Part shown: piece after piece, positions 21,996 to 37,940 of the stretch
Layout: each line of letters begins with the position of its first letter
How positions within the stretch are numbered: position 1 is the first letter of the stretch
Origin: Desulfovirgula sp.
GTDB lineage: Bacteria; Bacillota; Desulfotomaculia; Desulfotomaculales; Desulfovirgulaceae
Direction of reading: 5' to 3'
Length of the DNA: 38,206 bases
Assembly (NCBI GenBank): GCA_020725525.1
Contig: DYEX01000130.1
Location: 1-38,206 of the forward strand
Program-made: the position numbers and the translations under genes
Notes under the pieces: model-generated
Database searches by the model: none
What the model was told of the DNA's origin: nothing
The model's input: only the letters and a program-made list of their open reading frames with translations

Positions 21996-22526
21996 ATGAA
22001 CTTAACCGAAGAGGAAAAAAGGATTGCGGTAGAGCAAACCAGAAATATCCTGCAGGGCTTCTCCGGTGGCCGGGGGAACCTGATTCCCATTTTGCAGCAG
22101 GTACAGGAAAAGCTGGGCTATGTGCCCCGGGAGGCTATGGAGGAAGTGGCGCAGTACCTGGGCATTCCGGCCGTGGACGTTTACAGCGTGGCTACCTTTT
22201 ACAACCAGTTTCGCCTCATTCCCCCGGGGAAACACCAGATCAAGGTATGCATGGGCACGGCCTGCCACATGAAGGGGGGCAATATCATCCTGGACTGCTG
22301 GAAGAGACGGCTGGGCATTGACGTTAACCAGGTTACGCCGGACCGGGAATTCAGCCTGGAAAGGGTGGCCTGCGTGGGATGCTGTACCATGGCACCGGTA
22401 ACGGTGATCGATGAAGAGGTGCACGGCAAGGTAACCCCCACCCGGGTGGACGGATTGCTCTTTTCCTTTGGCGTAAAAATCCCGAAAGGCCAGCAGAAAG
22501 AAGGGGAAGCAGTTGAACAGCAGTAG
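21996..22526 (+). CDS. NADH dehydrogenase/hydrogenase subunit E-like [2Fe-2S] protein (NuoE/HndA type)
   Basis: This 176-residue thioredoxin-like ferredoxin has an N-terminal helical bundle (LIPILQQVQEKLGYVPREAMEEVAQYLGIP, then VYSVATFYNQF) and the cluster-binding cysteines in CMGTACHMKGG and CVGCC. It passes electrons between the flavin subunit and the rest of NADH-linked hydrogenases, formate dehydrogenases or complex I-like enzymes. The ATG at 21996 is spaced for AGGAGAG; the ATG at 21990 is too close to it. It overlaps the next gene by 14 bp. Confidence 0.93.
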   Translation: MNLTEEEKRIAVEQTRNILQGFSGGRGNLIPILQQVQEKLGYVPREAMEEVAQYLGIPAVDVYSVATFYNQFRLIPPGKHQIKVCMGTACHMKGGNIILDCWKRRLGIDVNQVTPDREFSLERVACVGCCTMAPVTVIDEEVHGKVTPTRVDGLLFSFGVKIPKGQQKEGEAVEQQ

Positions 22527-24423: not shown

Positions 24424-25061
24424 AAACAGTCACCTTAACCATAGATGGCCGGACCGTGCAGGCGCGGGAAGGGGAAAAACTGCTCTGGGCGGCCCTGGAA
24501 AACGGCATCTACATCCCCAACCTTTGCGCCATTCCCGGAGTAAAACACCCGGCTGCCGCCTGCCGGTTGTGCTTTGTGGAGATCGAAGGCTACCCGCGCC
24601 CGGTAACTGCCTGCACCGAGCCGGTAGTGGAAGGGATGGTGGTGTCCACCCGCAGCCCGCGGGTGGACCGCCTGGTGTACACGGCCTTTGAGCTCCTTTT
24701 GTCCAATCACCGCCTGGATTGCGCCAGCTGCCCCCGCAACCGCTCCTGCGAATTACAAAGGATTGCCCGGGAACGCCGCTTCTCCCTGCGGGTGAAACGG
24801 CTGAGAAAGCTGGAACGGAATCTGCAGGTGGACGACTCCAGCCCGGTAGTGCGCTACGACCCCGGCAAGTGTGTCCTCTGCGGGCGGTGTGTATGGGCCT
24901 GCCGGGAAAAAGGCACCGGAGTGCTGGGTTTTGCCCGGCGGGGGTTTGAGCGCAAAGTAACCACCTTTGGGGATGTTCCCCTTGGCCAATCGGGCTGTAA
25001 CGGTTGCGGCGAATGTACCAGAGTTTGCCCCGTGGGTGCCCTGACGGGGAAGGAAGCCTGA
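24420..25061 (+). CDS. FeS subunit equivalent to the N-terminal part of NuoG/HndD (HoxU-like)
   Basis: The 213-residue protein has a plant-type [2Fe-2S] domain (NLCAIPGVKHPAAACRLC, then TACTEP), the His-ligated [4Fe-4S] site (SNHRLDCASCPRNRSC), and two further [4Fe-4S] motifs (CVLCGRCVWACREKG, CNGCGECTRVCPVGAL). That is the electron-entry wire of NuoG, HoxU or the N-terminus of [FeFe] hydrogenase HndD/HydA, but the chain stops where the catalytic domain would begin. It is therefore a HoxU-like connector rather than a hydrogenase. The catalytic partner must be encoded elsewhere. Confidence 0.92.
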   Translation: MKTVTLTIDGRTVQAREGEKLLWAALENGIYIPNLCAIPGVKHPAAACRLCFVEIEGYPRPVTACTEPVVEGMVVSTRSPRVDRLVYTAFELLLSNHRLDCASCPRNRSCELQRIARERRFSLRVKRLRKLERNLQVDDSSPVVRYDPGKCVLCGRCVWACREKGTGVLGFARRGFERKVTTFGDVPLGQSGCNGCGECTRVCPVGALTGKEA

Positions 25062-25187
25062 TCTTCTCAATTTGAGATCAATGCCGGAAGTGCCAAATTT
25101 AGCGGCAATGCTGGCAAAGTTTACCCCGTCGTCGCATAATGAGATGGCTATCCGTTTCGGTTTGAGATAGATGGCTGAAAATTTTGC

Positions 25188-25220
25188 AGCAGGAAGTGCT
25201 TACTTCCTGCTTTATTTTTT
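25188..25220 (+). terminator. Terminator of the diaphorase operon
   Basis: The stem AGCAGGAAGT and ACTTCCTGCT (10 bp, GCTT loop) is followed by TTATTTTTT. Confidence 0.9.
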
Positions 25221-25286
25221 CCAGTAGCCGTGATAGCACAGATCTTGCCGCATATTCCGTGCGCCTGCCAGCATTTACATAAAGTC

Positions 25287-25301
25287 TGGCATAACTCTTG
25301 C
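25287..25301 (+). promoter_or_regulatory. Sigma-54 (RpoN) -24/-12 promoter for the kor operon
   Basis: The sequence TGGCATAACTCTTGC matches the RpoN consensus (TGGCAC...TTGC) with exactly 10 bases between the invariant GG and GC. Transcription would start near 25313, about 30 bases before korD. A TATAAT at 25305-25310 has no acceptable -35 and is probably incidental, though a SigA start cannot be excluded. Confidence 0.65.
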
Positions 25302-25343
25302 GAGTATAATCAAGTAGAAGTTGAACCGCGCGAGGTGATAGTA

Positions 25344-25565
25344 ATGGCTGAGGCTTTAGCTATTCCACGGGCTATAAAAATACAGGTGCGGCAAGGCTGG
25401 TGCAAGGGGTGCGGGATTTGCGTCGCCCTTTGCCCCAAGGAAGTGCTCTCCCTGGATGGTTCGGGCAAGGTTGCGGTGGTAAATCCCGATCGCTGCGTTG
25501 GCTGCGGCCGGTGTGAAATCCACTGCCCGGACTTTGCCATCGGCATAGAGGTGAAGGAACAATGA
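25344..25565 (+). CDS. korD: 2-oxoacid:ferredoxin oxidoreductase delta (ferredoxin) subunit
   Basis: This 73-residue 2x[4Fe-4S] ferredoxin (CKGCGICVALCPKEVL and CVGCGRCEIHCPDFAI) is the electron carrier subunit of the Kor complex. The ATG at 25344 has GAGGTG upstream; a longer frame to 25230 would cross the promoter. Its stop overlaps korA as ATGA. Confidence 0.94.
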   Translation: MAEALAIPRAIKIQVRQGWCKGCGICVALCPKEVLSLDGSGKVAVVNPDRCVGCGRCEIHCPDFAIGIEVKEQ

Positions 25566-26722
25566 GCGATGTGGTGGAAATGGCCCGCCTGATGCAGGGC
25601 AACGAGGCTGTGGTGGAAGGGGCCCTGGCGGCCGGGGTGCGTTTTTTTGCCGGCTACCCCATCACCCCCTCCACAGAGATTGCCGAGCTGATGGCTGAGC
25701 GCCTGCCCGGGTTAGGCGGTAAGTTCATCCAAATGGAAGATGAGATCGCCAGTATGGCCGCGGTAATCGGTGCTTCCCTGGCCGGGGTGAAGGCCCTTAC
25801 GGCCACCAGCGGGCCGGGCTTTTCGCTGAAGCAGGAAAACATCGGCTATGCGGCTATGGCTGAAATTCCCTGCGTGATTGTCAATGTACAGCGCTGGGGT
25901 CCCAGTACGGGTATTCCCACCGCCCCGGCCCAGGGGGATGTGATGCAGGCCAGGTGGGGAACCCACGGCGATCACCCGGTTATCGTCCTCTGCCCTGCCT
26001 CGGTGCGGGAAGCGTACATGCTGGCCATCCGGGCGGTGAATCTATCGGAAAAGTACCGGGTACCGGTGATCCTGCTCATGGACGAAGTGATCGGTCACAT
26101 GCGGGAACGGGTGATTCTGCCCCGGGCCGGGGAAGTGGAGGTAATTGAGCGTAAAAAGCCGGCGGTGGAGCCGAAAGATTATTACCCCTACCGCCCAGGC
26201 GATGACGGCGTGCCGCCCATGGCCAACTTCGGAGATGGTTACCGTTACCACGTAACGGGGCTGGTGCACGATGAAAAAGGCAATCCCACCACCGACCCTC
26301 AGGTTGCCGAAAATCTAATTCTGAGGCTGCACCGGAAAATTTACGATCATCTGGATGATGTGATTACCGTAGAGGGCTATCAGCTGGAGGATGCGGAGGT
26401 AGTTGTGGTTGCTTATGGTGCGGTGGCCAGATCGGCTAAACGGGCGGTCAAGGATGCCCGGGCGGCGGGTATCAAGGCGGGGCTGTTCCGGCCGGTAACC
26501 ATCTGGCCCTTCCCGGAAAAAGAGGTAGCGGAGCTTGCCCGGCAGGCCCGGGCCGTCATTGTCGCCGAAATGAACCTGGGCCAGCTCAAAGGAGAAGTGG
26601 AGCGGGCAGTGCAGGGCCGGGTGAGGGTGACGGGGGTTAACCGGCTGAACGGGGAACTGATCACCTTTGACGAAATCCTGTCCGCCATCAAGGAGGTGAC
26701 AACGGATGCTCAGTCAGGTTGA
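25562..26722 (+). CDS. korA: 2-oxoglutarate:ferredoxin oxidoreductase alpha subunit
   Basis: The 386-residue alpha subunit carries the domain I/II motif FFAGYPITPSTEIAELMAERLP and SGPGFSLKQENIGYAAMAEIPCV, typical of KorA/VorB, with the long insert ending in PYRPGDDGVPPMANFGDGYRYHVTGL. Kor oxidises 2-oxoglutarate plus CoA to succinyl-CoA, CO2 and reduced ferredoxin. The substrate 2-oxoglutarate is inferred from the D-A-B-C gene order and from the nearby isocitrate dehydrogenase and aconitase; a branched-chain 2-oxoacid enzyme (Vor) has similar sequence and remains possible. Confidence 0.9.
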   Translation: MSDVVEMARLMQGNEAVVEGALAAGVRFFAGYPITPSTEIAELMAERLPGLGGKFIQMEDEIASMAAVIGASLAGVKALTATSGPGFSLKQENIGYAAMAEIPCVIVNVQRWGPSTGIPTAPAQGDVMQARWGTHGDHPVIVLCPASVREAYMLAIRAVNLSEKYRVPVILLMDEVIGHMRERVILPRAGEVEVIERKKPAVEPKDYYPYRPGDDGVPPMANFGDGYRYHVTGLVHDEKGNPTTDPQVAENLILRLHRKIYDHLDDVITVEGYQLEDAEVVVVAYGAVARSAKRAVKDARAAGIKAGLFRPVTIWPFPEKEVAELARQARAVIVAEMNLGQLKGEVERAVQGRVRVTGVNRLNGELITFDEILSAIKEVTTDAQSG

Positions 26723-27527
26723 ATCCCACCTGCGGTCTGACCGGTTTCCCCATATCTGGTGTCCCGGTTGCGGCAACGGCATAGTTCTATCGGCGCTGGT
26801 CAGGGCCATTGAAGAGCTGGGGTACGACCCGGACAAAACCGTGGTGGTTTCCGGCATCGGCTGTTCTTCCCGGGCGGCGGGTTATCTGGATTTCAACACC
26901 CTGCATACCACCCACGGGCGGGCGCTGGCCTTTGCCACCGGTATCAAACTGGCCAGGCCTGAACTGGATGTCTTTGTCTTGATGGGAGACGGCGACGCCA
27001 CAGCCATCGGCGGCAATCACTTTATACACGCTGCCAGGCGCAATATAGACCTCACGGCCATCATTTTTAACAACAGCATCTATGGTATGACCGGGGGGCA
27101 ATATTCACCCCTCACTCCTCCCGGCAAAAGGGCAACTACCGCCCCCTACGGGAATATAGAGCGAAGCTTTGATATTGCCGAACTGGCTAAAGGTGCCGGC
27201 GCCACCTATGTGGCCCGGGCCACCACCTATCATGCCACCATGCTGGAAAAATTGATTGTGGCCGGAGCCAGAAACAAGGGCTTCAGCGTCATTGAGGCCA
27301 TCACCGCCTGTCCGGTGGGTTACGGGCGGCGCAACAAAATGGGCAACGGGTTGCAAATGCTTCTCTGGCAGAAGGAACAAGCGGTAACGGTGAAACAGGC
27401 GGAAAAAATGAGCCCGGAGGAGCTGCAGGATAAAATAATCATTGGTGAGTTGTACAGGGGGGAAGCTCCCGAATACACCGCCATGTACGAAGAAATCATT
27501 GCCAGGACAAAGGGCAAAAACCAGTGA
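26706..27527 (+). CDS. korB: 2-oxoglutarate:ferredoxin oxidoreductase beta (TPP-binding) subunit
   Basis: This 273-residue TPP-binding subunit has WCPGCGNGIVLSAL at the N-terminus and the metal/TPP motif GDGDATAIGGNHFIHAARRN, followed by NNSIYGMTGGQYSPLTP. It lacks the extra C-terminal ferredoxin-like parts of pyruvate enzymes, as is usual in four-subunit Kor. It overlaps korA by 17 bp. The catalytic centre of the complex is formed with KorA. Confidence 0.93.
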   Translation: MLSQVESHLRSDRFPHIWCPGCGNGIVLSALVRAIEELGYDPDKTVVVSGIGCSSRAAGYLDFNTLHTTHGRALAFATGIKLARPELDVFVLMGDGDATAIGGNHFIHAARRNIDLTAIIFNNSIYGMTGGQYSPLTPPGKRATTAPYGNIERSFDIAELAKGAGATYVARATTYHATMLEKLIVAGARNKGFSVIEAITACPVGYGRRNKMGNGLQMLLWQKEQAVTVKQAEKMSPEELQDKIIIGELYRGEAPEYTAMYEEIIARTKGKNQ

Positions 27528-27550
27528 GAGAAAAAAAGGAGATGATTAAA

Positions 27551-28108
27551 ATGCCCAGAACGATAGAATTCAGGTTGAGCGGTTCGGGTGGCCAGGGCCT
27601 GATCCTGGCGGGCGTTATCTTAGCCGATGCGGCCATCCGGGAGGGCAAAAACGCCGTGCAGGCCCAGTCCTACGGTCCGGAAGCCCGGGGTGGCGCCAGC
27701 AAGGCGGAAGTGATTATCAGTGACGGTGAAATTGATTACCCCAAAGTGGTCTTGCCCGATGTAGTCCTGGCCATGAGCCAGGATGCGGCCGATAAATATG
27801 CCGGGAAAGTCAAAAAGGGCGGCCTGCTGATTGTGGATAACACATACGTGAAAAATGTGCCGCCCACTCCCGCCCGGGTGTACGGCTTCCCCATTAGCCG
27901 CCTGGCCCGGGAAAAGGTGGGCAAGGAACTGGTGGCCAATATAGTGGCGCTGGGTATGCTGGCCGGGCTGACCGGTGCTGTCTCCCGCCAGACCCTGGAG
28001 CAGGCCCTTTTGTCGCGCATCCCCAGGGGTACAGAGTCTTTGAATCTGAAGGCGCTGGAGCTGGGATTTGAAATGGCTAAAACCTTTTCGGTAAAGGTTC
28101 CTGCTTAA
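27551..28108 (+). CDS. korC: 2-oxoglutarate:ferredoxin oxidoreductase gamma subunit
   Basis: The 185-residue gamma subunit binds CoA and completes the Kor complex. Diagnostic motifs are FRLSGSGGQGLILAGVILADAA and QSYGPEARGGASKAEVIIS. The ATG at 27551 has AAAGGAG about ten bases before it; the in-frame GTG at 27524 and ATG at 27542 are less well placed. It is the last gene of korDABC. Confidence 0.93.
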   Translation: MPRTIEFRLSGSGGQGLILAGVILADAAIREGKNAVQAQSYGPEARGGASKAEVIISDGEIDYPKVVLPDVVLAMSQDAADKYAGKVKKGGLLIVDNTYVKNVPPTPARVYGFPISRLAREKVGKELVANIVALGMLAGLTGAVSRQTLEQALLSRIPRGTESLNLKALELGFEMAKTFSVKVPA

Positions 28109-28318
28109 AATGAGGTTGTTTTGGATGGGAGCACATTTCCGGGAGATTAATTACCTGTTAGAAACTGCCAGAGGGAAAATGCTTCCGGTGCAGAAGGAAT
28201 GAATAGGACTGTAATTGATACTGTCGCCAATCCGGGGGAAGATTTCCTTCCGGCTGCTTTTGCGGCAGTTTCTTATTACGGCTGAATTGGGCCACGAGAG
28301 TCATCGGGGGAAAAAAGA
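28109..28318 (+). other. Structured intergenic region before the MFS gene
   Basis: A 10-bp perfectly complementary pair (AGAAACTGCC at 28160-28169 and GGCAGTTTCT at 28264-28273) encloses about 95 bases containing a CCGG..AAG/CTTCCGG hairpin (28231-28254). An alternative small hairpin (GCTGC, TTTT, GCGGC) overlaps the right arm and is followed by AGTTTCTTATT, a weak terminator. Competing folds are possible, but with one copy I cannot call it a riboswitch. Confidence 0.35.
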
Positions 28319-29533
28319 TTGCTATGGAAGAAAAACTTATACGTCCTGTGCCTGACCCAGTTTCTGGTCATGTCTTCAATGCAGCTGATCATGCCTTTTC
28401 TTCCCTTCTATATTGAGAAACTGGGCGTTACAGAACCAGGAGACGTAACCGTCTGGACGGGTATCATTGCCTCGGCCAATTTTCTGGCTTCGGCCATTAT
28501 GTCCCCGGTGTGGGGGAATATGACGGATCGCCTTGGGTGTAAAATTATGGTTCTGCGTTCACTGGTTGCCCTGGCGACATTTGCCGTCTTTTTAAGCCTG
28601 GCGCAGAATGTTTACCAGTTTACGGCTATTCGGGCTTTGATGGGGGCCTTCAGTGGCTTCAATGCGGCAGCCATTGCCTTGGTGGCAGTAAATACACCCG
28701 AAGAGCACCTGGGTTATGCCCTTGGACTTTTGCAGACGGCCCAGGTGGCGGGAACCATAACAGGCCCCCTGTTCGGTGGAATAATAGCCAGCCTTTACGG
28801 ATACCATCAGGTTTTCCATTTGATTACCCTGATTAACGCCCTGGCAGCGATAATGGTATATGGTTTGATCAGGGAAAATTTTTGCCCTGGCTGCACCGTA
28901 CGGCATATTCACAATCCGGCGGAGGAAAGTGGATCTTCCCCCGGACAAACCCCTCTCTGGGTTGTTTTTGTCGTTATTTTCGTTGCCCAGCTGTCCGTAC
29001 GCATTGTGGAACCAATGGTACCTATCTTTGTGAAATCCTTATACCAGGATGAGCGCTTTCTGTCCTTAATCGCCGGGATAATCATTGCTTCCACGGGTGT
29101 GGCCAATGTGCTGGGAGCCCCTGTGCTGGGGCGTCGCAGTGACAGATCCGGCTATAAGTTAACCCTGGTGCTGTCCCTTACCGGTGCGGGTTTTCTGTAT
29201 CTGGCCCAAACTCTGGCCAGTTCCCCCTGGCAACTGGGCATTTTAAGATTTCTCCTGGGCTTTTGCATGGCGGGCATTTTCCCGTCCGCCAATGCCATAG
29301 TGGGGCACCTTTTCCCGAGGGAAAAGCGGGGGAAGGCCTATGGCATAATTTCCAGTGCCACTTTTTTGGGCAATTTTGCCGGGCCGCTGACCGGAGGATT
29401 GATTGCCGCCCGGTTTAGTGTGCATGCTGTTTTCCCGGTTACCGGTGCACTGTTACTGATCAATGCGGTGTGGGTGGTTAAATCCCTGGTGGAACCCAGA
29501 AAAATTTTTAACCCCGGACAGCAGGAAAATTAA
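28319..29533 (+). CDS. MFS transporter, DHA1-type exporter
   Basis: This 404-residue protein has 12 predicted membrane helices and the MFS motif A in the first cytoplasmic loop (PVWGNMTDRLGCK) with an equivalent in the second half (VLGRRSDRSGYK). The motif-C-like GLLQTAQVAGTITGPLFGG in helix 5 is typical of drug/H+ antiporters of the 12-TM group (Bmr/MdtG-like). It is an inner-membrane exporter of unknown substrate. The TTG at 28319 follows GGGGG at suitable distance. It stands between the kor operon and the carboxylate genes and may not belong to either. Confidence 0.85.
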   Translation: MLWKKNLYVLCLTQFLVMSSMQLIMPFLPFYIEKLGVTEPGDVTVWTGIIASANFLASAIMSPVWGNMTDRLGCKIMVLRSLVALATFAVFLSLAQNVYQFTAIRALMGAFSGFNAAAIALVAVNTPEEHLGYALGLLQTAQVAGTITGPLFGGIIASLYGYHQVFHLITLINALAAIMVYGLIRENFCPGCTVRHIHNPAEESGSSPGQTPLWVVFVVIFVAQLSVRIVEPMVPIFVKSLYQDERFLSLIAGIIIASTGVANVLGAPVLGRRSDRSGYKLTLVLSLTGAGFLYLAQTLASSPWQLGILRFLLGFCMAGIFPSANAIVGHLFPREKRGKAYGIISSATFLGNFAGPLTGGLIAARFSVHAVFPVTGALLLINAVWVVKSLVEPRKIFNPGQQEN

Positions 29534-29625
29534 ATATTTATGTCGAATACTCAACCCACTTGGTTTTCAAAAAATTTGCAACAGTGACTTTTATGCTTGC
29601 AGCGGGATAGTATGGAGGCTTGAAG

Positions 29626-29958
29626 GTGAAAAAGACGGTGTTTGTGGCCGGCCATGCCAGTCTTCCCCAGGGCATGGCGGCCAAGGGTATATATGGTACC
29701 CTGGCCATTGTTGCGGAAATTGATCGCAAGTACGGCGTTATTGTGCAGGCATCCTGCACACTGGTTACTCCGCTGGCACAGGAGTATATCAGATCAATTC
29801 TGGTGGGACATAGCCTGCTGGAAGGGATAGAAGAACCAATCCAGCAAATTAAGGAGTGCTATCACGGGGCGGCGCAGAATGCCCTGATTGCCGCCCTTAA
29901 GGACTTGTACCGGACTTACCTGAGCGGTTCCGGGCAGGCAAGTCAAAAGGCCAGGTAG
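29626..29958 (+). CDS. DUF3870 protein
   Basis: A 110-residue cytosolic protein, with KTVFVAGHASLPQGMAAKGIYGTLAIVAEID at the N-terminus and ASCTLVTPLAQEYIRSILVGHSL in the middle, which is the pattern of the uncharacterised DUF3870 family. The GTG at 29626 has GGAGG seven bases upstream. From memory, members frequently neighbour carboxylate-metabolism or transporter genes; here it directly precedes the regulated leader of a TRAP transporter. No activity is known. Confidence 0.75.
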   Translation: MKKTVFVAGHASLPQGMAAKGIYGTLAIVAEIDRKYGVIVQASCTLVTPLAQEYIRSILVGHSLLEGIEEPIQQIKECYHGAAQNALIAALKDLYRTYLSGSGQASQKAR

Positions 29959-29970
29959 CGAAAAAAATAA

Positions 29971-30010
29971 AAAAAGCGTCTTTAAAACGAAAAAAGTGTC
30001 TTTAATAAAG
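29971..30010 (+). repeat. Two tandem 20-bp repeats upstream of the TRAP leader
   Basis: Two adjacent 20-bp units share AAAAAG(C/T)GTCTTTAA and match at 15 of 20 positions. The period is about two helical turns, and the repeats sit a few bases upstream of the leader RNA, so they are candidate activator or repressor sites. Both -10 and -35 of the TRAP promoter remain unclear in this AT-rich stretch. Confidence 0.5.
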
Positions 30011-30015
30011 TCCGT

Positions 30016-30112
30016 CAACTGTAATATCTACAATCGACCGAGCGATCGGGCGGTGCGAGTAGATAGGTAGCCAGTTGTACGCCGGGCGTCAACGGTTACC
30101 TATTTTTATTTT
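30016..30112 (+). promoter_or_regulatory. Candidate riboswitch/antiterminator leader, copy A (TRAP operon)
   Basis: Three nested stems are complementary: CAACTG (30016-30021) with CAGTTG (30072-30077); TATCTAC (30025-30031) with GTAGATA (30059-30065); ACCG (30037-30040) with CGGT (30051-30054). The outer right arms lie in the 5' half of a following terminator (ATAGGTAGCC 30063-30072, GGTTACCTAT 30094-30103, then TTTTATTTT), so the two folds exclude each other. The same architecture with compensatory changes occurs at 33253-33356. It resembles no riboswitch class that I can name. Confidence 0.7.
30063..30112 (+). terminator. Conditional terminator in the TRAP leader
   Basis: A long hairpin (ATAGGTAGCC with GGTTACCTAT, extended inward by GTTG/CAAC and ACG/CGT) is followed by TTTTATTTT. 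It ends 110 bp before dctP, so it is an attenuator, not the end of the previous gene alone. Confidence 0.8.
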
Positions 30113-30222
30113 CGGATTTTTGTTTTGGTTTTGACTTTTACTTATGTTCGCACAGGGGGGTGATGTTTGGGAAAAAGAGATACAAAGAAAAAACTTTAAT
30201 TATTTTGGAGGAGGTATCACAA

Positions 30223-31245
30223 ATGAGAAAGCGGAACTACTTGCTTTCCCTGTTAGCTTTGTTGACGTTGTTCACACTTTTACTGACAGGTTGTGGCGGC
30301 AAAAAAGAAGCGGCTCAAAACCAGTCTACTGAAAAAATAGTGGCTAAGTTCAGTCACGTTACTGCTCCGGGTACACCTAAGGGTCTTGCAGCGCAAAAGT
30401 TTGCGGACCTGGTAAAGGAGCGCACCAACGGGCGGGTAGAAATTCAGGTATTTCCGTCCTCCCAGTTGTATGGCGATAAAGACGAGTTTGAAGCCCTTCA
30501 AGCCAATAACGTCCAGTTTATCGCCCCATCCGCCGGTAAGTTAATCAGTTTCGACCAGCGTTTTCAGATCGGGGACATGCCTTTCCTGTTTAAAGATAAC
30601 CAGGGGGCGGCCAGATTTTGGGATAGTGAAGCAGGTAAGAAGTTGTTGCAAAGCCTGGAAAGCCAGGGCATGGTCGGTCTTACTGCCTGGCCCAACGGCA
30701 TGCGGCAGTTCATGAACAGCAAAAAGGAATTGAAAAAACCTGAGGATTTTAAAGGTCTGAAGTTCCGGATTCCCGCCGGTGGTGTATTGGTAGATATTTT
30801 CCAGGCACTGGGTGCGGGAACTGCCAATATTCCGTTTAGTGAAGTTTATACCGCCCTTCAACAAAAAGTTGTCGACGGAACTATTGCTACCTTTGATAAC
30901 ATAGAACACGAAAAATATGACGAAGTACTGAAATATCTTACTGTAGCCAATGTCAATAATCTTTCCTATATCGTGATTGCAAACAAACAATTTTGGGATG
31001 GCCTCCCACCGGATATTCGGGAAACTGTTGAACAGTGCCTGAAGGAAGCGACGGAATATGAGCGGCAACTGGCCGATCAGCTGGACCAGGAAAGCCTGGC
31101 TAAATTGAAGCAGAAAATCAAGGTGCACGAGTTAACTCCGGAGGAACGCCAGGCCTTCGTGGAGGCCATGCAGCCGGTATGGGCCAAGTACGAACCTGTC
31201 ATTGGTAAGGAGCTCTTTGAGGAAGCGAAAAAGTTGAATCAATAA
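30223..31245 (+). CDS. dctP: TRAP transporter solute-binding lipoprotein (DctP family)
   Basis: This 340-residue extracytoplasmic binding protein has a lipoprotein signal ending LLLTGC (Cys24), then the DctP fold: SHVTAPGTPKGLAAQKFADLVKERTNGRVEIQVFPSSQLYGDKDEFEAL, and the carboxylate-binding core around GLKFRIPAGGVLVDIFQALGA and PFSEVYTALQQKVVDGTIATFDN. The conserved Arg in FRIPAGG normally salt-bridges the substrate carboxylate. The ATG at 30223 has GGAGGAGG upstream; earlier in-frame starts lack it. With DctQ and DctM it imports an organic acid driven by Na+. Confidence 0.93.
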   Translation: MRKRNYLLSLLALLTLFTLLLTGCGGKKEAAQNQSTEKIVAKFSHVTAPGTPKGLAAQKFADLVKERTNGRVEIQVFPSSQLYGDKDEFEALQANNVQFIAPSAGKLISFDQRFQIGDMPFLFKDNQGAARFWDSEAGKKLLQSLESQGMVGLTAWPNGMRQFMNSKKELKKPEDFKGLKFRIPAGGVLVDIFQALGAGTANIPFSEVYTALQQKVVDGTIATFDNIEHEKYDEVLKYLTVANVNNLSYIVIANKQFWDGLPPDIRETVEQCLKEATEYERQLADQLDQESLAKLKQKIKVHELTPEERQAFVEAMQPVWAKYEPVIGKELFEEAKKLNQ

Positions 31246-31282
31246 GTTTTCAGCCCTGAGAAGGGTTTAGTGCGGGAGGTTT

Positions 31283-31308
31283 CGGGTGTACCATAAACGG
31301 TGCACCCG
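31283..31308 (+). other. Intercistronic hairpin between dctP and dctQ
   Basis: The stem CGGGTGTACC and GGTGCACCCG (10 bp, one T-G pair, six-base loop) has no T-tract. In TRAP and ABC operons such hairpins protect the upstream binding-protein mRNA, allowing more binding protein than membrane subunits. Confidence 0.6.
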
Positions 31309-31344
31309 GGTTCCCCCGGTTTTAACGGGTGAAGGGGGGAAAAT

Positions 31345-31902
31345 ATGAGCCGTCTCCAGCGTATTTATTCCGCCTTCGAGGAGGCCATTGCCGGTATCTT
31401 TTTCTTTGCGGGAGTAACCCTGATCTTTTACGGGGTAATCAGCCGCTATGTGTTTAAAAACCCCCTGTTTTGGGTGGACGAGATTTCTACTTATATACTC
31501 GTCTGGGGGTGTATTCTGGGTTGGAGCATCGCCCAGCGGGACGGGCGTCACATCCGGGTTAGTCTTTTGTACAATTATATGCCGTCAAAGGTACAACGCT
31601 ATGTGAGTATCTTTGCCAGCATTGCCAGCATTTTGTTCTGCCTGTTCCTGACTTACCTGGGATACATTTTGGAAACCAAATACCTGCATACAGGACAGCG
31701 GTCCTTAAATACGCAGTTTCCCTTGTGGGCGGTGTACTTTTTTGTTCCCATTGCTGCTTTTATGCTTTGCATCCGGTATATTGAAGAGTTGTACCACCTT
31801 TTAAAAAATGGGGGAAAGGACAGGCCGGTGGCAGGGTCCGGGGAAACCGAGGATGGACAGAAAGGAGTAATGTCGCATCATGGAGGCAGCCCTACTCTTT
31901 AG
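31345..31902 (+). CDS. dctQ: TRAP transporter small permease subunit (DctQ)
   Basis: The 185-residue membrane protein has four transmembrane helices (about 15-37, 47-65, 87-108 and 124-147) and the DctQ motif LFWVDEISTYILVWGCILGWSIAQRDGRHIRV. The C-terminal tail is hydrophilic. It starts at an ATG with AAGGGGGGAA before it and overlaps dctM by 23 bp. Confidence 0.92.
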   Translation: MSRLQRIYSAFEEAIAGIFFFAGVTLIFYGVISRYVFKNPLFWVDEISTYILVWGCILGWSIAQRDGRHIRVSLLYNYMPSKVQRYVSIFASIASILFCLFLTYLGYILETKYLHTGQRSLNTQFPLWAVYFFVPIAAFMLCIRYIEELYHLLKNGGKDRPVAGSGETEDGQKGVMSHHGGSPTL

Positions 31903-33157
31903 TATTTTCATCATTTTGTTCCTTTTACATGTACCCATTGCCCTGAGCCTGGCCATTTCCAGTGTCCTGGTATTAGCCTTAACTACGGACTTCAACCTGT
32001 ACATGGTGGCCCAGAAGATGTTTTCCGCCCTGGAGTCCCCTCCGCTTATGGCCATTCCCGGTTTTGTCCTGGCCGGTGCCATTATGGCCCACGGGGGGAT
32101 TTCCAGGTACCTGATTGCCGCCCTGCGGGCCTGGGTCGGCCACCTGCGGGGAGGGCTTTCGGTAGTAACCATCCTGGCCTGCATGATCTTTGCCGCCATT
32201 TCGGGTTCCAGTCCGGCCACCGCTGCCGCCGTCGGAGGTATTCTTATACCGGCCATGGTAGAGGCCGGGTATGAGAAGCGTTACGCCATGGGGCTGGTGG
32301 CTGCTTCCGGCACCCTGGGTATTTTGATCCCGCCCAGCATTACCTTTGTGCTCATCGGGGTAACGGCTAATGAGTCCATCGGTAAACTGTTTATGGCTGG
32401 TGTGTTACCGGGCATTTTCCTGGGCGGTGTGCTCCTGCTTACAGCCATCATTTATGCACGCCTGAAAAATTACGGCGGTGAGCCCAGGGCCGACTGGAAA
32501 ACCAGGTGGCAATACACCTGGAAAGCCATTCCCGGGCTTTTGCTCCCCGTGCTCATTCTGGGTAGCATTTACGGCGGGGTCTGCACGCCCACAGAAGCTT
32601 CAATTGTGTCCGTCTTTTACGCCCTTTTTGTGACCACCTTTATTTATCGTGAAATGACCTGGAACAAATTTCGCTCCATCCTCAGGGAAGCCATAGGCAT
32701 CACTTCAATGATCTTCTTGATTATTCCTGCAGCCATGACGTTTGCCATGTATTTAGCCAGTGAACAGATTCCCGCTAAAATCGCTCAATGGATCGCCAAT
32801 AGCAATTTGGGGGTGGGTATGTTCTGGGTGGCAGTAAACACCATGTTCTTTGTAATGGGCACTTTTCTGGAGGCTGTTTCCATCGTACTGATCACCCTTC
32901 CCATTTTGATACCAATAATCAAACACCTGGATATCAACATGATCCATTTTGCTGTCATTATGGTCATCAATATGGAACTGGCCATGATTACTCCTCCCGT
33001 GGGATTGAACCTTTTTGTTGTTAGCGGGATTGGTCGGGAGCGTCTGGAAGAAGTCGTCAAGGGTGTATTGCCATTTGTAGTGGTTATGATCCTTACCCTT
33101 ATATGCCTGGTTTTGTTCCCGAAAATTTCCCTTTACCTGCCCTCGCTAATGCGCTAA
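31880..33157 (+). CDS. dctM: TRAP transporter large permease subunit (DctM)
   Basis: The 425-residue membrane subunit has about 12 helices and the paired DctM signatures: PPLMAIPGFVLAGAIMAHGGISRYLI, ISGSSPATAAAVGGILIPAM, GTLGILIPPSITFVLIGV, and the second-half repeat TPTEASIVSVFYALFVT and ELAMITPPVGLNLFVVSGI. It carries the elevator transport domain. The C-terminus LFPKISLYLPSLM is typical. It is the last gene before the second leader RNA. Confidence 0.94.
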   Translation: MEAALLFSIFIILFLLHVPIALSLAISSVLVLALTTDFNLYMVAQKMFSALESPPLMAIPGFVLAGAIMAHGGISRYLIAALRAWVGHLRGGLSVVTILACMIFAAISGSSPATAAAVGGILIPAMVEAGYEKRYAMGLVAASGTLGILIPPSITFVLIGVTANESIGKLFMAGVLPGIFLGGVLLLTAIIYARLKNYGGEPRADWKTRWQYTWKAIPGLLLPVLILGSIYGGVCTPTEASIVSVFYALFVTTFIYREMTWNKFRSILREAIGITSMIFLIIPAAMTFAMYLASEQIPAKIAQWIANSNLGVGMFWVAVNTMFFVMGTFLEAVSIVLITLPILIPIIKHLDINMIHFAVIMVINMELAMITPPVGLNLFVVSGIGRERLEEVVKGVLPFVVVMILTLICLVLFPKISLYLPSLMR

Positions 33158-33207
33158 AATTAAAGATGAAATCCATGTATTTTGTGTACAATTCCAAAAG
33201 CGATCTT

Positions 33208-33250
33208 CCGAGGAGTTCCCTTTGATGAGCTTTATAGCCGGGAACTTCGG
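33208..33250 (+). other. Hairpin just upstream of leader B
   Basis: CCGA-GG-AGTTCCC (33208-33220) pairs with GGGAACTTCGG (33240-33250), 11 bp with a two-base bulge. It has no equivalent in leader A, so it is either an extra domain of B or the terminator stem of dctM without a clear T-tract. No convincing promoter is visible in 33158-33252 (only a TACAAT at 33187-33192). Confidence 0.4.
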
Positions 33251-33252
33251 TG

Positions 33253-33356
33253 CAACTGCAGTTATTCACCACCGTGCGGGCAGACCGGGCGGTAAGAGTG
33301 GATAAGGCAACCAGTTGTAACTTACGGTTACATGCTGGTTGCCTTTATGTTTTTTA
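33253..33356 (+). promoter_or_regulatory. Candidate riboswitch/antiterminator leader, copy B (prpF operon)
   Basis: The same three stems as in leader A: CAACTG (33253-33258) with CAGTTG (33312-33317); TATTCAC (33263-33269) with GTGGATA (33298-33304); ACCG (33271-33274) with CGGT (33290-33293). Versus A, one pair changes T-A to C-G and another C-G to T-G, both keeping pairing. Unpaired GGG before CGGT and GAGT after it are shared. The terminator stem AAGGCAACCAG/CTGGTTGCCTT (33304-33345) shares bases with the antiterminator right arms and is followed by TTTTTT. Confidence 0.7.
33304..33356 (+). terminator. Conditional terminator in the prpF leader
   Basis: The 11-bp stem AAGGCAACCAG and CTGGTTGCCTT, with an inner TGTAAC/GTTACA stem, is followed by TATGTTTTTT, about 40 bp before the prpF-like start. 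Confidence 0.85.
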
Positions 33357-33393
33357 ACCCATTTTATCCGACGGGATGAGAAAAGGAGGTTGA

Positions 33394-34566
33394 TTGGGCG
33401 TGCGGGAGTTTGAAAAAATACGCTGCGCGATTATCCGGGGAGGTACCAGCAAAGGGGTTTTCCTGCTGGAAAACGACCTGCCCCGGGATCCTGAAACACG
33501 GGACCGGGTGATCCTGGCCATCTTCGGCAGTCCCGACCCCCGGCAAATAAACGGCCTGGGCGGGGCGGACTCCCTGACCAGTAAGGTGGCCATTATCGGG
33601 CGCTCCAGCAGGCCCGACGCCGATGTGGATTATACCTTCGGGCAGGTCAGCATTACTGCCCCCCTGGTGGATTATAAGGGCAACTGCGGCAATATTTCTT
33701 CCGCCGTGGGTCCTTTTGCCATCGACGAGGGTCTGGTTAAAGCAGTGGAGCCGGTAACCACGGTACGCATCTTTAACACCAACACCGGGAAAATCATTGC
33801 AGCGGAAGTTCCCGTTAGGGATGGGAGGGCGGTCACCGAGGGTGATCTGGCCATCGATGGCGTGCCGGGTACCGGCGCCCGCATCACTTTAAACTTCCTG
33901 GATTCCGGTGGAGCGGTAACGGGAAAGTTGCTCCCGACCGGCAATTTAAAGGATGAAATAACCCTGTCCGACGGGACCAGGCTGACGGTGTCCCTGGTGG
34001 ATGCCGCCAACCCGGCGGTGTTTTTTAAGGCCGCGGACCTGGGGCTGACCGGCGTGGAACTGCCGGATGCGGTCAACAGCGACCCGCAGTTACTGGCACG
34101 CATTGAAGAGATCCGGAGCATTGCCGCCGAAATGATGGGGTTTGCGCACCGTCTGGAGGCTACGGCGAAAAGCCCGGCGGTACCCAAGATCGTCTTTGTC
34201 TCCCCGCCCTGTGCCTACAAAACCAGCGACGGCCGGGTTATCGAAGCCGGCCAGATTGACCTGGTGGCGCGGACCATGTCCATGCAGAAGATGCACAAGG
34301 CCTTCGCCGTAACGGGTGGGATCTGCACGTCGGCGGCAGCCAGGTTGGAGGGGACGGTGGTCAGCGAGGTCCTGGGCCCATCTGCCCGGCAGGGAAAAGT
34401 GGTCAGGTTGGGACATCCTTCGGGCACTTTGGAATTTGAAATTGAAATTACCCGCGATGCCGGCGGCAATCCGCGGCTGGAAAAAGCTGCGGTGGCCCGG
34501 ACGGCCCGCCGCATCATGGATGGTTTTGTTTATGTGCCGCGCCGGATTTTCTGGCCGGAAGTTTAA
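33394..34566 (+). CDS. PrpF-family (DUF453) carboxylic acid isomerase
   Basis: PrpF-type proteins have the diaminopimelate epimerase fold and isomerise aconitate-like acids (2-methyl-trans-aconitate to cis, or 4-oxalomesaconate tautomers). The 390-residue protein has RCAIIRGGTSKGVFLLENDLP at the N-terminus, the catalytic-region lysine in GADSLTSK (Lys64), GNCGN (Cys98), and the pseudo-repeat segment AVTGGICTSAAA in the second half. In this operon with aconitase and isocitrate dehydrogenase, trans-aconitate/cis-aconitate isomerisation is a reasonable inference, not a proven one. TTG at 33394 (AAAAGGAGG four bases upstream) or GTG at 33400 may start it. Confidence 0.88.
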   Translation: MGVREFEKIRCAIIRGGTSKGVFLLENDLPRDPETRDRVILAIFGSPDPRQINGLGGADSLTSKVAIIGRSSRPDADVDYTFGQVSITAPLVDYKGNCGNISSAVGPFAIDEGLVKAVEPVTTVRIFNTNTGKIIAAEVPVRDGRAVTEGDLAIDGVPGTGARITLNFLDSGGAVTGKLLPTGNLKDEITLSDGTRLTVSLVDAANPAVFFKAADLGLTGVELPDAVNSDPQLLARIEEIRSIAAEMMGFAHRLEATAKSPAVPKIVFVSPPCAYKTSDGRVIEAGQIDLVARTMSMQKMHKAFAVTGGICTSAAARLEGTVVSEVLGPSARQGKVVRLGHPSGTLEFEIEITRDAGGNPRLEKAAVARTARRIMDGFVYVPRRIFWPEV

Positions 34567-34597
34567 CTGGTAACAGCACACAAAAGGAGGGGCTGGC

Positions 34598-35599
34598 ATG
34601 TACCGCATTACCCTGATTCCCGGAGACGGCATTGGACCCGATATCACGGCGGCTACCAGGACGGTCCTGGCCGCTACCGGAGTGGATATTCAGTGGGAGG
34701 AAAAACTGGCCGGAGAAACCGCCCTGAGGGAGTACGGTGAGCTTTTGCCGGAGGACACCCTGGCCTCCATTAGAAAAAACAAGGTGGCCCTGAAGGGCCC
34801 CCTGACCACTCCCGTGGGCACCGGTTTCCGCAGTGTTAATGTGGCCCTGCGCAAGGAGTTTGATTTGTTCGCCAATCTCCGTCCTGCCCGTACATACCAG
34901 GGCGTTAAATCGCGCTACGATAATGTGGATCTGGTGGTCGTCCGGGAAAATACCGAGGACCTGTATGCCGGTATCGAACACATGGTGGGCGAAGATGCGG
35001 CCGAAAGCATCAAGGTTATCACCCGCCGGGGGGCGGAACGGATCGTCCGCTTTGCCTTTGAATATGCAGTGCGGGAAGGACGCAAAAAAGTGACTGTGGT
35101 CCATAAAGCCAACATCATGAAGTGCACCGACGGCCTGTTTCTGGCCGTGGCCCGGAAGGTAGCCGAGGATTACCCCCAAATTGAGTTTGAGGATCGCATT
35201 GTGGACAACATGTGCATGCAGCTGGTGCAAAAACCGGAGCTGTACGATGTGCTGGTGATGCCCAACCTCTACGGGGACATCATATCGGACCTCTGTGCCG
35301 GCCTGGTGGGCGGTCTGGGGATGGCCCCGGGGGCTAATATCGGCACCGATATAGCCATCTTTGAACCCGTTCACGGTAGTGCCCCCAAATACGCCGGGCA
35401 GAACAAGGTAAACCCCTCGGCCATGATTTTTTCCGCAGTCATGATGCTGAAATACCTGGGTGAAAAAGAAGCGGCGGCTAAGGTGGAAAGGGCGCTGGCT
35501 GAAGTCATCCGCGAAGGACGTGTGGTGACCTGCGACCTGGGAGGCAGCGCCAGCACCTCCGAAATGGCCGAGGCCATTGTAGACAAAATGCGCGGGTAA
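34598..35599 (+). CDS. Isocitrate dehydrogenase of the isopropylmalate/isocitrate dehydrogenase family
   Basis: This 333-residue beta-decarboxylating dehydrogenase resembles mitochondrial-type (IDH3) isocitrate dehydrogenases: [10 protein letters not shown], the isocitrate-binding loop [22 protein letters not shown] with the phosphate/carboxylate-binding serine, [58 protein letters not shown], and ending [14 protein letters not shown]. Homoisocitrate or isopropylmalate activity is less likely given the serine loop. The cofactor segment is [15 protein letters not shown]; the KY pair matches NADP-type enzymes rather than the DI of NAD-type ones, so NAD is not certain. It lies 31 bp after the isomerase. 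Confidence 0.88.
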
Positions 35600-35613
35600 G
35601 GAGGTGGTCCCCT

Positions 35614-36294
35614 GTGGGAGAGTCGTTAATTCCAATTTACATCATGGGGAAGCGCTACGAGGTACCCGAAGGACTTACTATTATGAAGGCCCTGGAATGG
35701 GCAGGTTACCAGCTTATCCGCGGCTGTGGTTGCCGGGGCGGTTTCTGCGGCGCCTGTGCCACGGTATACCGGGTGCCCGGCAACTTCCGGATACAGGTCG
35801 GTTTGGCCTGCCAGACGCCGGTTACACCCCATATGACCCTCATGCAATTGCCTTACTTCCCTGTAAATAAGGCCGTTTATGACCTTGACAAGGTGGGTTC
35901 GCCTTTAGAAACTCTATTGCAGCTTTATCCCGAAGCCACCCGCTGCCTGGGGTGCAATACCTGCACCAGCGTTTGTCCGCAGAAATTACAGCCCATGTAT
36001 TACGTGGCGGCGGCGCTGCGGGGGGATTTTGCCCGGGCGGCGGAACTGTCCTTTGATTGCATTATGTGCGGTCTCTGTGCCGCCCGCTGTCCGGCCCAGC
36101 TGGTGCCGTACAACATTGCTATCTTTGTCCGCCGTTACTACAGCAAACATATGAGGCCCAAACCCCGGCACCTGAAAGACCGGGTGGCCGAAATCCGGGC
36201 GGGCCTGCACGATCAGGCTCTGGCCGGGATTGCCGCTGCCAGTGAAGAAGAGTTGAAGAAGCTCTATTTAGAACGGGAATTTGAAAAGCTATAA
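35614..36294 (+). CDS. Fumarate reductase/succinate dehydrogenase-like iron-sulfur subunit
   Basis: The 226-residue protein has an N-terminal [2Fe-2S] domain (Cys40, 45, 48 and 66: GCRGGFCGAC ... GLAC) and a helical C-terminal domain with two 4-Cys motifs, CLGCNTCTSVCP and CIMCGLCAARCP. Such paired motifs occur in FrdB-like and HdrC/TfrB-like electron carriers; classic SdhB has mixed [4Fe-4S] and [3Fe-4S] sites. No membrane anchor gene (SdhC/D) is next to it, so the pair with the following flavoprotein is probably soluble or uses another partner. GTG at 35614 has AAGGAGGTGG before it. Confidence 0.85.
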   Translation: MGESLIPIYIMGKRYEVPEGLTIMKALEWAGYQLIRGCGCRGGFCGACATVYRVPGNFRIQVGLACQTPVTPHMTLMQLPYFPVNKAVYDLDKVGSPLETLLQLYPEATRCLGCNTCTSVCPQKLQPMYYVAAALRGDFARAAELSFDCIMCGLCAARCPAQLVPYNIAIFVRRYYSKHMRPKPRHLKDRVAEIRAGLHDQALAGIAAASEEELKKLYLEREFEKL

Positions 36295-36314
36295 TGCGGG
36301 GGAGGAGATTTCAG

Positions 36315-37940
36315 GTGGGCTATCCCATAGAAATGCAGGAATCAATTCGCAAGCTGGAAGCTACCCGTGCCTTTCGCCTCCAGCAGGAGATCCCGCGCCT
36401 GACGCCGGAAGAAAAAAACCGCCTGCTCGAGCAATGCCACCCCGACTTCCGTCCGGATGGGATGCGGCCGGTAAGGGTGGGTCCCAATAAAGGCCAGCGC
36501 ATGCAAAATGAACTGGTGGACCTCCTGGAGGCCTACAGCCGTATTGACCCAGATCGGGTGGATCTCAGCCGTATAGATTACGATGTGGATGTCCTGGTGG
36601 TGGGCGGGGGTGGTGGGGGAGCCACTGCCGCCCTCATTGCCCACGAAAATGAAGCGCGGGTGCTCCTGACCACCAAGCTGAGGTTGGGCGATGCCAATAC
36701 CATGATGGCGGAAGGAGGTATTGCCGCCGCCACCCAGCCCAATGACTCTCCCTATTTGCATTTTCTGGATACCATTGGCGGAGGAAGGTTCCAGAATAAG
36801 CGGGAGCTGGTCTGGGCGCTGGTGCACGATGCGCCTCTGATCGTGGAATGGCTGAAGGACCTGGGGGCCATGTTTGATACCCACCCGGACGGGGATCTGG
36901 TGGTATCCTTTGCCGGGGGGCACTGCCGCCGCCGGGTGCACTCCTGCAAGGACTTAAGCGGTATGGAATTTATGCGGGTCATTCGCGATGAGTTGTGGAA
37001 CAGAAGGGTGGAGGTGCTGGAATTCAGTCCCGCGGTGGAACTTTTGCTGGACGAAAGAGGCCGCTGTGCGGGGGCCATTTTGATGAACCTGGAGACCCGC
37101 GAGCACATCATTGTCCGGGCCAGAGCGGTTATCCTGGCTACCGGCGGCATTGGCCGCCTGCACCCCAATAAATTCCCCACCACGAACCATTACGGTGCCA
37201 CTGCCGACGGGCTGGTGATTGCCTACCGGGCCGGAGCCCGCCTTTTGCACATGGACGCCATTCAGTACCATCCTACCGGTGCCGCCTGGCCGGAGCAGAT
37301 GTTGGGCCAGCTAATCACCGAGGCCCTGCGGGGCAACGGTGCCCAGCTGGTGAACGTACACGGGGAAAGGTTTATCAACGAACTGGAAACCCGCGACGTA
37401 ACCTCTTCGGCGATCATCCGGGAAGTGCGGGATAGAAAAAATGGGGTACGCACACCCACGGGTATGGAAGGGGTGTGGCTGGATACACCTCTAATTGATA
37501 TCCGTGGTGGAGAGGGAAAACTGGACCGGATGTTTGCCGGCATAGTGCACCGGTTTCGCGAATATGGGATTGACGTTCACAAAGAGCCCATCCTTGTCTT
37601 TCCAACACAGCATTACCAGAATGGTGGTGTCGAGATCGATCCGGAAGGGAGAACGGGCATACCCGGCCTTTTTGCGGCCGGCGAGGTGGCGGGAGGAGTG
37701 CAGGGCAGAAACCGCCTGGGCGGAAACTCTCTGGTGGACATTTTTGTCTTTGGCCGGCGGGCCGGACAGGCAGCGGCGCTTTTTGCCAGGGAGGGGCCTT
37801 CACCTGGAAAGCTTACGCTGGAACACGTGCGCCGTTATCATCGGGAACTGGCAGCCGAAGGTATTGAAAAGGGGCGCGTCTCGCCGCTGTTGCTTCCCGA
37901 TTATACCCGTCCCGAAGTTAAAGAGCGTCGCTATAGTTAA
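36315..37940 (+). CDS. Fumarate reductase/succinate dehydrogenase-like flavoprotein
   Basis: This 541-residue FAD protein has the dinucleotide fold at about 97 (VDVLVVGGGGGGATAALIA), the substrate motifs IQYHPTG, ETRDVTSSAIIREV (catalytic Arg region), HYQNGGVEI and the FAD-capping end VQGRNRLGGNSLVDIFVFGRRAG. The family's covalent-FAD histidine (SHT...QGG) is replaced by ANTMMAEGG, so FAD should be non-covalent, as in cytosolic fumarate reductases or L-aspartate oxidase. An N-terminal 80-residue extension precedes the fold. The GTG at 36315 has GGAGGAG at proper spacing; ATG 36294 overlaps the upstream stop. The substrate could be fumarate/succinate or aconitate/tricarballylate. Confidence 0.85.
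   Translation: MGYPIEMQESIRKLEATRAFRLQQEIPRLTPEEKNRLLEQCHPDFRPDGMRPVRVGPNKGQRMQNELVDLLEAYSRIDPDRVDLSRIDYDVDVLVVGGGGGGATAALIAHENEARVLLTTKLRLGDANTMMAEGGIAAATQPNDSPYLHFLDTIGGGRFQNKRELVWALVHDAPLIVEWLKDLGAMFDTHPDGDLVVSFAGGHCRRRVHSCKDLSGMEFMRVIRDELWNRRVEVLEFSPAVELLLDERGRCAGAILMNLETREHIIVRARAVILATGGIGRLHPNKFPTTNHYGATADGLVIAYRAGARLLHMDAIQYHPTGAAWPEQMLGQLITEALRGNGAQLVNVHGERFINELETRDVTSSAIIREVRDRKNGVRTPTGMEGVWLDTPLIDIRGGEGKLDRMFAGIVHRFREYGIDVHKEPILVFPTQHYQNGGVEIDPEGRTGIPGLFAAGEVAGGVQGRNRLGGNSLVDIFVFGRRAGQAAALFAREGPSPGKLTLEHVRRYHRELAAEGIEKGRVSPLLLPDYTRPEVKERRYS

Follow-up and report, generated by a model that had tools for sequence, protein, structure and literature searches.

The small trans-acting proteins BglG, LicT and SacY stabilize the ribonucleic antiterminator (RAT), one RNA hairpin that contains internal loops and shares sequence with a terminator; each regulator serves several operons, and its gene often lies beside a target. 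HutP, PyrR and the TRAP attenuation proteins, which are small metabolite-dependent RNA binders, also act at leader terminators, and their RNA sites differ from the leaders described here. In the ANTAR system of EutV (PMC8934654), a dual-hexaloop RNA element overlaps the terminator stem, and the bound protein prevents the terminator. Here we describe two leader RNAs, A and B, in a stretch of 38,206 nucleotides from Desulfovirgula sp. (contig DYEX01000130.1; the window in what follows), together with the gene for a DUF3870 protein directly 5' of leader A. A terminator/antiterminator switch worked by a trans factor is a known kind of control, while the RNA family and the role proposed in it for DUF3870 appear to be new. 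We consider it probable that the leaders represent a new family of attenuator RNAs in which DUF3870 would act in trans, holding a ligand, binding the RNA and stabilizing the antiterminator.

Leader A occupies 30016-30112 and leader B 33253-33356; the two are homologous terminator/antiterminator switches, each able to form either the helices P1, P2 and P3 or a strong terminator. The features concerned are as follows.

30016..30077, + strand: leader A antiterminator, with P1 30016-30021/30072-30077, P2 30025-30031/30059-30065 and P3 30035-30040/30047-30052; matched by RNA model R3 over 30016-30077 at 36.9 bits (window A belongs to the R3 training set)
30061..30112, + strand: leader A intrinsic terminator with U-rich tail; stem 30061-30105, z -5.56, the P1 3' arm inside the terminator 5' arm
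33253..33317, + strand: leader B antiterminator, with P1 33253-33258/33312-33317, P2 33262-33269/33298-33305 and P3 33272-33279/33285-33292; matched by RNA model R2 over 33253-33319 (window B belongs to the R2 training set)
33304..33355, + strand: leader B intrinsic terminator with U-rich tail; stem 33304-33345, z -5.54, the P1 3' arm inside the terminator 5' arm
29620..29958, + strand: DUF3870 gene, 112 amino acids, Pfam PF12986 at 104.4 bits against a cut-off of 22; directly 5' of leader A, proposed trans-acting partner of both leaders

The arms of leader A read CAACTG/CAGTTG for P1 and TATCTAC (30025-30031)/GTAGATA (30059-30065) for P2; those of leader B read CAACTG (33253-33258)/CAGTTG (33312-33317) and TTATTCAC (33262-33269)/GTGGATAA (33298-33305). 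Since the P1 3' arm is also part of the terminator 5' arm, the terminator and the three-helix hairpin are mutually exclusive. The predicted folding energies of the full leaders with the terminator formed are -34.6 (A) and -48.6 (B) kcal/mol, and those of the antiterminator stretches alone, which differ in length from the full leaders, are -21.1 (A) and -26.6 (B) kcal/mol. The terminator fold is thus predicted to be the more stable, and the default is probably termination.

A first-pass annotation of this DNA had proposed two homologous leaders with CAACTG...CAGTTG and a 7-bp inner stem, right arms overlapping the terminator, covariation, and no riboswitch class that could be named. The arms are indeed present, the P1 3' arm sits in the terminator 5' arm in both A and B, and changes on both sides of pairs were found in close homologues as well as in the wider alignment. 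Comparison of the window with the covariance models of Rfam 15 gave no match at the gathering threshold anywhere, hence none at the leaders to the T-box model (RF00230). The innermost helix, drawn as ACCG/CGGT in both leaders, stood in B only, where it is the outer end of an 8-bp P3 with two pairs changed on both sides (six distinct sequences, a small set). In A-type leaders ACCG/CGGT pairs in 75% of cells with zero compensatory changes; P3 there is CGNCCG/CGGGCG, with 93.3% of cells paired and three pairs with both-side changes (five distinct sequences, also a small set). The GGG described as conserved and unpaired belongs to the 8-bp P3 stem of B, and the DUF3870 gene adjoining leader A had been overlooked.

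The core shared by A and B, CGGGCGGTnnGAGTnGATA, has exactly two matches in the whole genome. With up to three mismatches there are 36 genome matches, and among the 30 of these that were read, only A and B have the leader structure, which excludes a third copy among them. Within the window the same tolerance yields four matches (two exact) against 0.37 expected by chance. In a plasmid collection the core pattern matches 27 records, and the five listed match inside prpF only. It is noted that a direct repeat, GTCTTTAA, stands just 5' of leader A at 29978-29985 and 29998-30005, 20 bp apart; it could belong to a promoter or regulator site.

Same-place homologues of both leaders occur in four related genomes, G001, G005, G008 and G006. 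A pattern search of 41 genomes found the exact core at both places in G001 and G005 and with one to two mismatches in G008; in G006, leader A was matched by the pattern and leader B recognized by reading the sequence. DUF3870 lies directly 5' of leader A in these four genomes and in G004. A B-type leader stands 5' of prpF in G053, from another family of the order, and relic A copies persist in G002 and G004. At this place G002 has lost both the TRAP-prpF-frd genes and DUF3870 while keeping a relic leader A, and a more distant DUF3870 is found elsewhere in its genome; we count this linked loss for the tie between the RNA and DUF3870. G004 has lost the TRAP-prpF-frd operon and kept DUF3870 and leader A. 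The two places (L062 6830-7122 in G002, L063 6829-7288 in G004) are natural deletions sparing leader A, with remnants of DctM and SdhA.

As in the RAT of LicT, each leader consists of one hairpin, interrupted by internal loops and overlapping a terminator, and the DUF3870 gene lies beside a target among several operons. The leader hairpin differs in being about 60 nt long with three helices, in having DUF3870 rather than a CAT-PRD protein as its candidate partner, and in lacking an Rfam match. No CAT-PRD protein was found among the nine proteins scanned around the leaders, and the genome was not searched for one. The ANTAR element of PMC8934654 resembles the leaders in overlapping the terminator stem; however, the leaders are one composite hairpin, not two, and are without the conserved A1/G4 hexaloop. 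The P3 loops read AGCGAU in window A and GCAGA in window B, with a GCAA tetraloop possible in leader A of G006, and neither A nor B shows two adjacent hairpins with six-base loops carrying A at position 1 and G at position 4. The literature searched on glutarate antitermination, TRAP/prpF riboswitch candidates, regulation of the Bacillus glutarate hydroxylase and antiterminator proteins yielded nothing describing the leader element. DUF3870 is not named in the passages searched of PMC11109978 and PMC8632094, and their supplements may hold an unnamed candidate. The odc1 motif near pfam02515 coenzyme A (CoA) transferases is, according to PMC8632094, an upstream open reading frame element with a sequestered ribosome site, and is therefore different from the DUF3870-associated leader.

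DUF3870 is present in 16 of 113 genomes of the order and in 55 of 398 genomes of a phylum sample. Reading of Bacillota DNA finds the same antiterminator and terminator after, before or accompanying many DUF3870 genes. The layout consists of P1 around CUG/CAG, an internal loop, an 8-bp P2, an internal loop and a P3 hairpin, with the P1 3' arm in the terminator stem. Constancy is confined to short helices and small internal loops, whereas P3 differs between elements in the sequence and length of both its stem and its loop. Leaders A and B share this layout, with a P2 of 7-8 bp, P3, the terminator and the P1 3' arm in its stem. In G007, an element 5' of an acyl-CoA synthetase-like open reading frame (ORF) has the P2 UUAUCUAC/GUAGAUAA, which is the window's own P2. 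The homologues that the first-pass annotation had thought worth seeking are thus many, whereas its idea of a family tied to carboxylate TRAP/prpF operons was too narrow. The same RNA layout goes with DUF3870 genes in front of many different operons, and a single tricarboxylate read directly by the RNA is consequently unlikely.

In an alignment of 18 DUF3870-adjacent elements, none from the window's family, 92.1% of P1/P2 cells are paired and 36 cells are changed on both sides against 12.4 in shuffles. With 40 distinct elements, the window's family included, 90.2% are paired (33-43% in slid controls) and 91 cells are changed on both sides against 32.8, these counts being of sequences and not of evolutionary events. 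In two alignment sets, the sequence enclosed by the P2 arms has a more stable fold than its shuffles (mean z -2.7, 34 of 40 below -1; and -2.1, 25 of 36), which supports P3. At the level of sequence and predicted structure the family is thus marked by mutually exclusive folds with compensatory changes and by a conserved place 5' of ORFs, and A and B appear to be two copies of a widespread, apparently undescribed family of transcription attenuators. Rfam gave no match at the elements in 18 and 12 related loci; a cobalamin riboswitch (RF00174) at L137 5222-5410, about 1.8 kb 3' of a DUF3870 leader, is unrelated to the element.

A first shared-arm descriptor did not discriminate (score 18 was reached by 73 of the 88 terminators close to DUF3870 and by 892 of the 1461 elsewhere) and was therefore replaced. 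Its successor, at a score of at least 14, placed 28 matches in the interval -20..330 nt that follows 82 DUF3870 ORFs, compared with 33 across the remainder of 1.39 Mb on both strands, several of the 33 being true second copies; because this descriptor had been shaped by eye on the same loci, the enrichment does not amount to a blind test. When it was applied to 80 further loci, eight matches after DUF3870 were obtained in eight loci, six of them accepted, a weak result that is due to leaders standing 5' of the neighbouring operon and to another P2 start. Elements 5' of DUF3870 or between tandem DUF3870 genes (L145, L146, L155) have what looks like an autoregulatory layout. Tandem DUF3870 genes occur in L132, L155, L156 and L168, and in L155 each copy has a leader after it. 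In five loci of one genus, g103 (L147, L151, L154, L157, L158), the intergenic DNA after DUF3870 is conserved, rich in GC and bears a terminator; it is possibly a diverged form of the leader.

Among the genomes searched, the RNA family goes with DUF3870: terminator-bearing matches were seen only where DUF3870 is present, adjacent or elsewhere in the genome. RNA model R1, trained without the window's family, matched, at E ≤ 1e-4, 21 of the 398 genomes of the phylum sample; 20 belong to the 55 that have DUF3870. Seventeen of these 20 are R1 training genomes; the others, G170, G406 and G451, have both DUF3870 and a terminator. The exception, G390, has no DUF3870 and no terminator at the match. 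At E ≤ 0.01, an untrained match in the DUF3870 genome G230 has a terminator, and seven of the eight DUF3870-free genomes matched (all but G272) were inspected, none having a terminator at the match; R1 at this threshold marks 27 of the 60 loci L123-L182, 17 of which are training loci. R1 elements with terminators also lie 6.7 to 19 kb from DUF3870 or on other contigs, where the ORFs, read from translated starts, are those of a methylmalonyl-CoA mutase (G170), a nitroreductase (G451), a CoA transferase (G147), fumarate reductase flavoproteins (G294, G488, G270) and a transporter (G406). RNA matches that look false on inspection include those of R2 in three DUF3870-free genomes and in G054, the loci with such matches being L219 (G390), L221, L222, L224, L385, L388, L390, L391, L202, L205, L206, L208, L209, L211 and L212.

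The association extends to Bacilli. Of 232 loci, 80 were retained in a search based on the window-like DUF3870 group, and 76 of these, mostly from Bacillaceae and relatives, were counted; L226-L228 and L233 (Desulfofundulus group) were left out of the Bacilli counts. Here the leader is usually 5' of a neighbouring operon, not after DUF3870. Descriptor 2, shaped on six loci that had been read and then run on the 76, found 50 elements in 44 loci, 49 of them followed within 600 nt by an ORF of at least 140 amino acids; reversed strings and 341 kb of other loci both yielded 0. R3 at E ≤ 0.01 matched 59 of the 76 loci and 34 of the 51 outside its training, and R2 at E ≤ 0.05 found only two Bacilli elements. 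The ORFs after these leaders read as class III CoA transferase, CsiD/GlaH-like glutarate hydroxylase (CsiD also by family search), GabT-like aminotransferase and amino-acid permease, and by this reading probably serve lysine/glutarate catabolism. In L229-L305 the leader is 5' of class III CoA transferase-like, glutarate-type operons, and DUF3870 belongs to a separate unit, which often runs in the opposite direction.

The order of G301, which we call Bacillales-like because it resembles the Bacilli loci, was covered with 199 genomes, 76 with DUF3870 (five of them weak, E 4e-4 to 8e-4) and 123 without. R3 matched 25 of the 199, all 25 with DUF3870 and 0 of the 123 without (Fisher 2e-12, uncorrected for kinship). 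There are 36 matches in total; a hairpin and U-run come after each of the 30 inspected, as judged by descriptor for 21 and by eye for nine, and one of these 30 loci contains a training sequence letter for letter. Eight of the 36, four of which are among the inspected, are remote from every DUF3870, being on a different contig or separated by over 100 kb. An R3 match at E ≤ 1 accompanies 21 of the 27 CsiD genes (E < 1e-90), and for 20 of these it reaches E ≤ 0.023. The co-presence of CsiD/GlaH and DUF3870 in this order suggests a tight functional link.

The AlphaFold2 model of DUF3870 is a small alpha/beta fold (mean predicted local distance difference test score 86.4). Its Foldseek matches of highest probability are IscU proteins (0.98-0.99, TM 0.50-0.57), and in structural realignment IscU proteins and lipoate-ligase domains come first (Z 8.0-8.6). 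Both IscU/NifU realignments, the one at Z 8.6 and a second at Z 8.4 (root-mean-square deviation (rmsd) 3.3, 96 aligned), are near the level possible for a common arrangement, and an IscU/NifU-like fold is suggestive only. IscU/NifU scaffold proteins are the nearest predicted fold, but the 12 aligned DUF3870 proteins have no invariant cysteine column, which makes an Fe-S scaffold role unlikely. DUF3870 differs from HutP, PyrR and the TRAP attenuation proteins in having no sequence match to any solved chain: phmmer returned 0 matches in the PDB up to an E of 1, so no solved RNA-binding regulator resembles its sequence. The literature searched holds no role for DUF3870 and no link to regulation, its mention there concerning other domains.

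Several observations weigh against DUF3870 as the partner of the RNA family. In the window, R1 ranks leader A second (12.5 bits, E 0.17, correct register) and does not list leader B, so that the place of A and B in the wide family owes more to layout, position and shared arms than to an independent score. Of five measures of the alignments, two are less telling, exceeding shuffles weakly or not at all: the pairs changed (8 against 5.8 in shuffles for 18 elements, 10 against 8.5 for 40) and the pair types (15 against 17.6, and 23 against 20.8). The co-occurrence across the phylum comes for the most part from training genomes. R1 at E ≤ 0.01 matched 31 of the 398 genomes, 23 with and eight without DUF3870; R2 matched 14 of the 113 genomes of the order, three without it; and R3 matched seven of the 113, all with DUF3870 but consisting of training sequences and their near copies. 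No leader is visible by eye at the DUF3870 loci L086, L093 and L094, 17 of the 76 Bacilli loci have no R3 match at E ≤ 0.01, and only 25 of the 76 DUF3870 genomes in the order of G301 score in the strict R3 search. The genomes of that order are related, and the Fisher value therefore overstates independence. All 27 genomes there with a CsiD/GlaH match (E < 1e-90) carry DUF3870, and co-inheritance of the pathway remains a confounder of the association with the RNA. As to the protein, Foldseek gives no match at E ≤ 0.001, the first by E-value being an enolase-superfamily enzyme; the best realignment, to IscU, is modest (Z 8.6, rmsd 5.3 over 103 residues); the median isoelectric point is only 8.2; and the IscU-like fold is not known as an RNA-binding one.

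Three other explanations were considered. The P1-P2-P3 hairpin could bind a metabolite itself, DUF3870 being merely a frequent regulon member such as an enzyme or accessory protein. Such a riboswitch would fit the terminator/antiterminator form, the metabolic operons and the frequent position of DUF3870 inside or beside the operon, and protein binding to the hairpin is itself only inferred. A variable P3 with constancy confined to short helices and small internal loops, chemically diverse downstream genes and the restriction of terminator-bearing matches to DUF3870 genomes all speak against it, however, and we regard it as rather unlikely. Nor can a test of presence separate genes that always travel together: another RNA-binding protein might operate the switch and DUF3870 be co-inherited with it, and the predicted fold of DUF3870 gives no hint of RNA binding. 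Yet DUF3870 adjoins the RNA in many families and operon types, and in G006 it stands right before leader A, where the 6.7 kb upstream gave no match to kor or MFS (other shared neighbours were not systematically searched); this explanation seems to us quite improbable.

The elements might also be ordinary terminators with chance upstream complementarity and no regulation, given that a left P1 arm is bound to look like the 3' arm of the terminator, a likeness that duplication can produce. The compensatory changes in P2 and P3 lie outside that shared arm, though, and the conserved place 5' of ORFs with no match in reversed controls makes chance a very remote explanation.

With DUF3870 as the preferred partner, the control would work as follows. 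The nascent leader RNA would fold either into the intrinsic terminator or into the three-helix hairpin of P1, internal loop, P2, internal loop and P3, with termination as the probable default without the partner. DUF3870 (about 105 amino acids, predicted IscU/NifU-like fold) would bind the hairpin at its internal loops when holding a carboxylate or CoA ester, and the bound protein would stabilize the antiterminator and let RNA polymerase read into the operon. Control would then resemble that of LicT at RAT or of EutV at ANTAR elements, with another RNA and another protein. DUF3870 may thus sense carboxylates or their CoA esters; candidate ligands would be glutarate-related in Bacillaceae and a di- or tricarboxylate in Desulfofundulus. 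The earlier suggestion of a protein-bound RNA was a sound one as a possibility, with DUF3870, by association, the probable protein.

The genes that the two leaders precede in the window are listed below.

30223..33157, + strand: TRAP transporter genes 3' of leader A, namely DctP 30223-31245, DctQ 31345-31902 and DctM 31880-33157 (Pfam; NCBIfam for DctP and DctM)
33394..37940, + strand: genes 3' of leader B (Pfam; NCBIfam matches below curated cut-offs), namely the following four
33394-34566, + strand: prpF-like isomerase
34598-35599, + strand: isocitrate/isopropylmalate dehydrogenase family
35614-36294, + strand: Fe-S subunit
36294-37940, + strand: fumarate reductase-like flavoprotein

TRAP uptake, the PrpF-type isomerase, the isocitrate dehydrogenase family member, the fumarate reductase-like pair and an upstream 2-oxoacid oxidoreductase suggest, as predicted from their sequences, import of a di- or tricarboxylate, e.g. 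aconitate, into the tricarboxylic acid (TCA) cycle. Over 22513-37940, NADH/Fe-S oxidoreductase-like subunits (by ORF reading), a 2-oxoacid:acceptor oxidoreductase and the isocitrate dehydrogenase family and fumarate reductase-like genes surround TRAP and prpF, and the region looks like a TCA-type acid catabolism island.

We lean towards seeing in DUF3870 a new family of antiterminators that bind RNA in a metabolite-dependent way and would be the first to have an IscU/NifU-like fold. With the three-helix leader they would form a regulatory system across the phylum Bacillota that governs carboxylate and acyl-CoA metabolism, the catabolism of glutarate in Bacillaceae among it. If so, it would give a function to DUF3870, a family for which the literature describes no role that we could find, and would add a widespread RNA family that has no match in Rfam 15. 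It would also supply a new compact device for ligand-dependent antitermination, and explain how acid uptake, CoA activation and the breakdown of glutarate may be turned on in many Bacillota.

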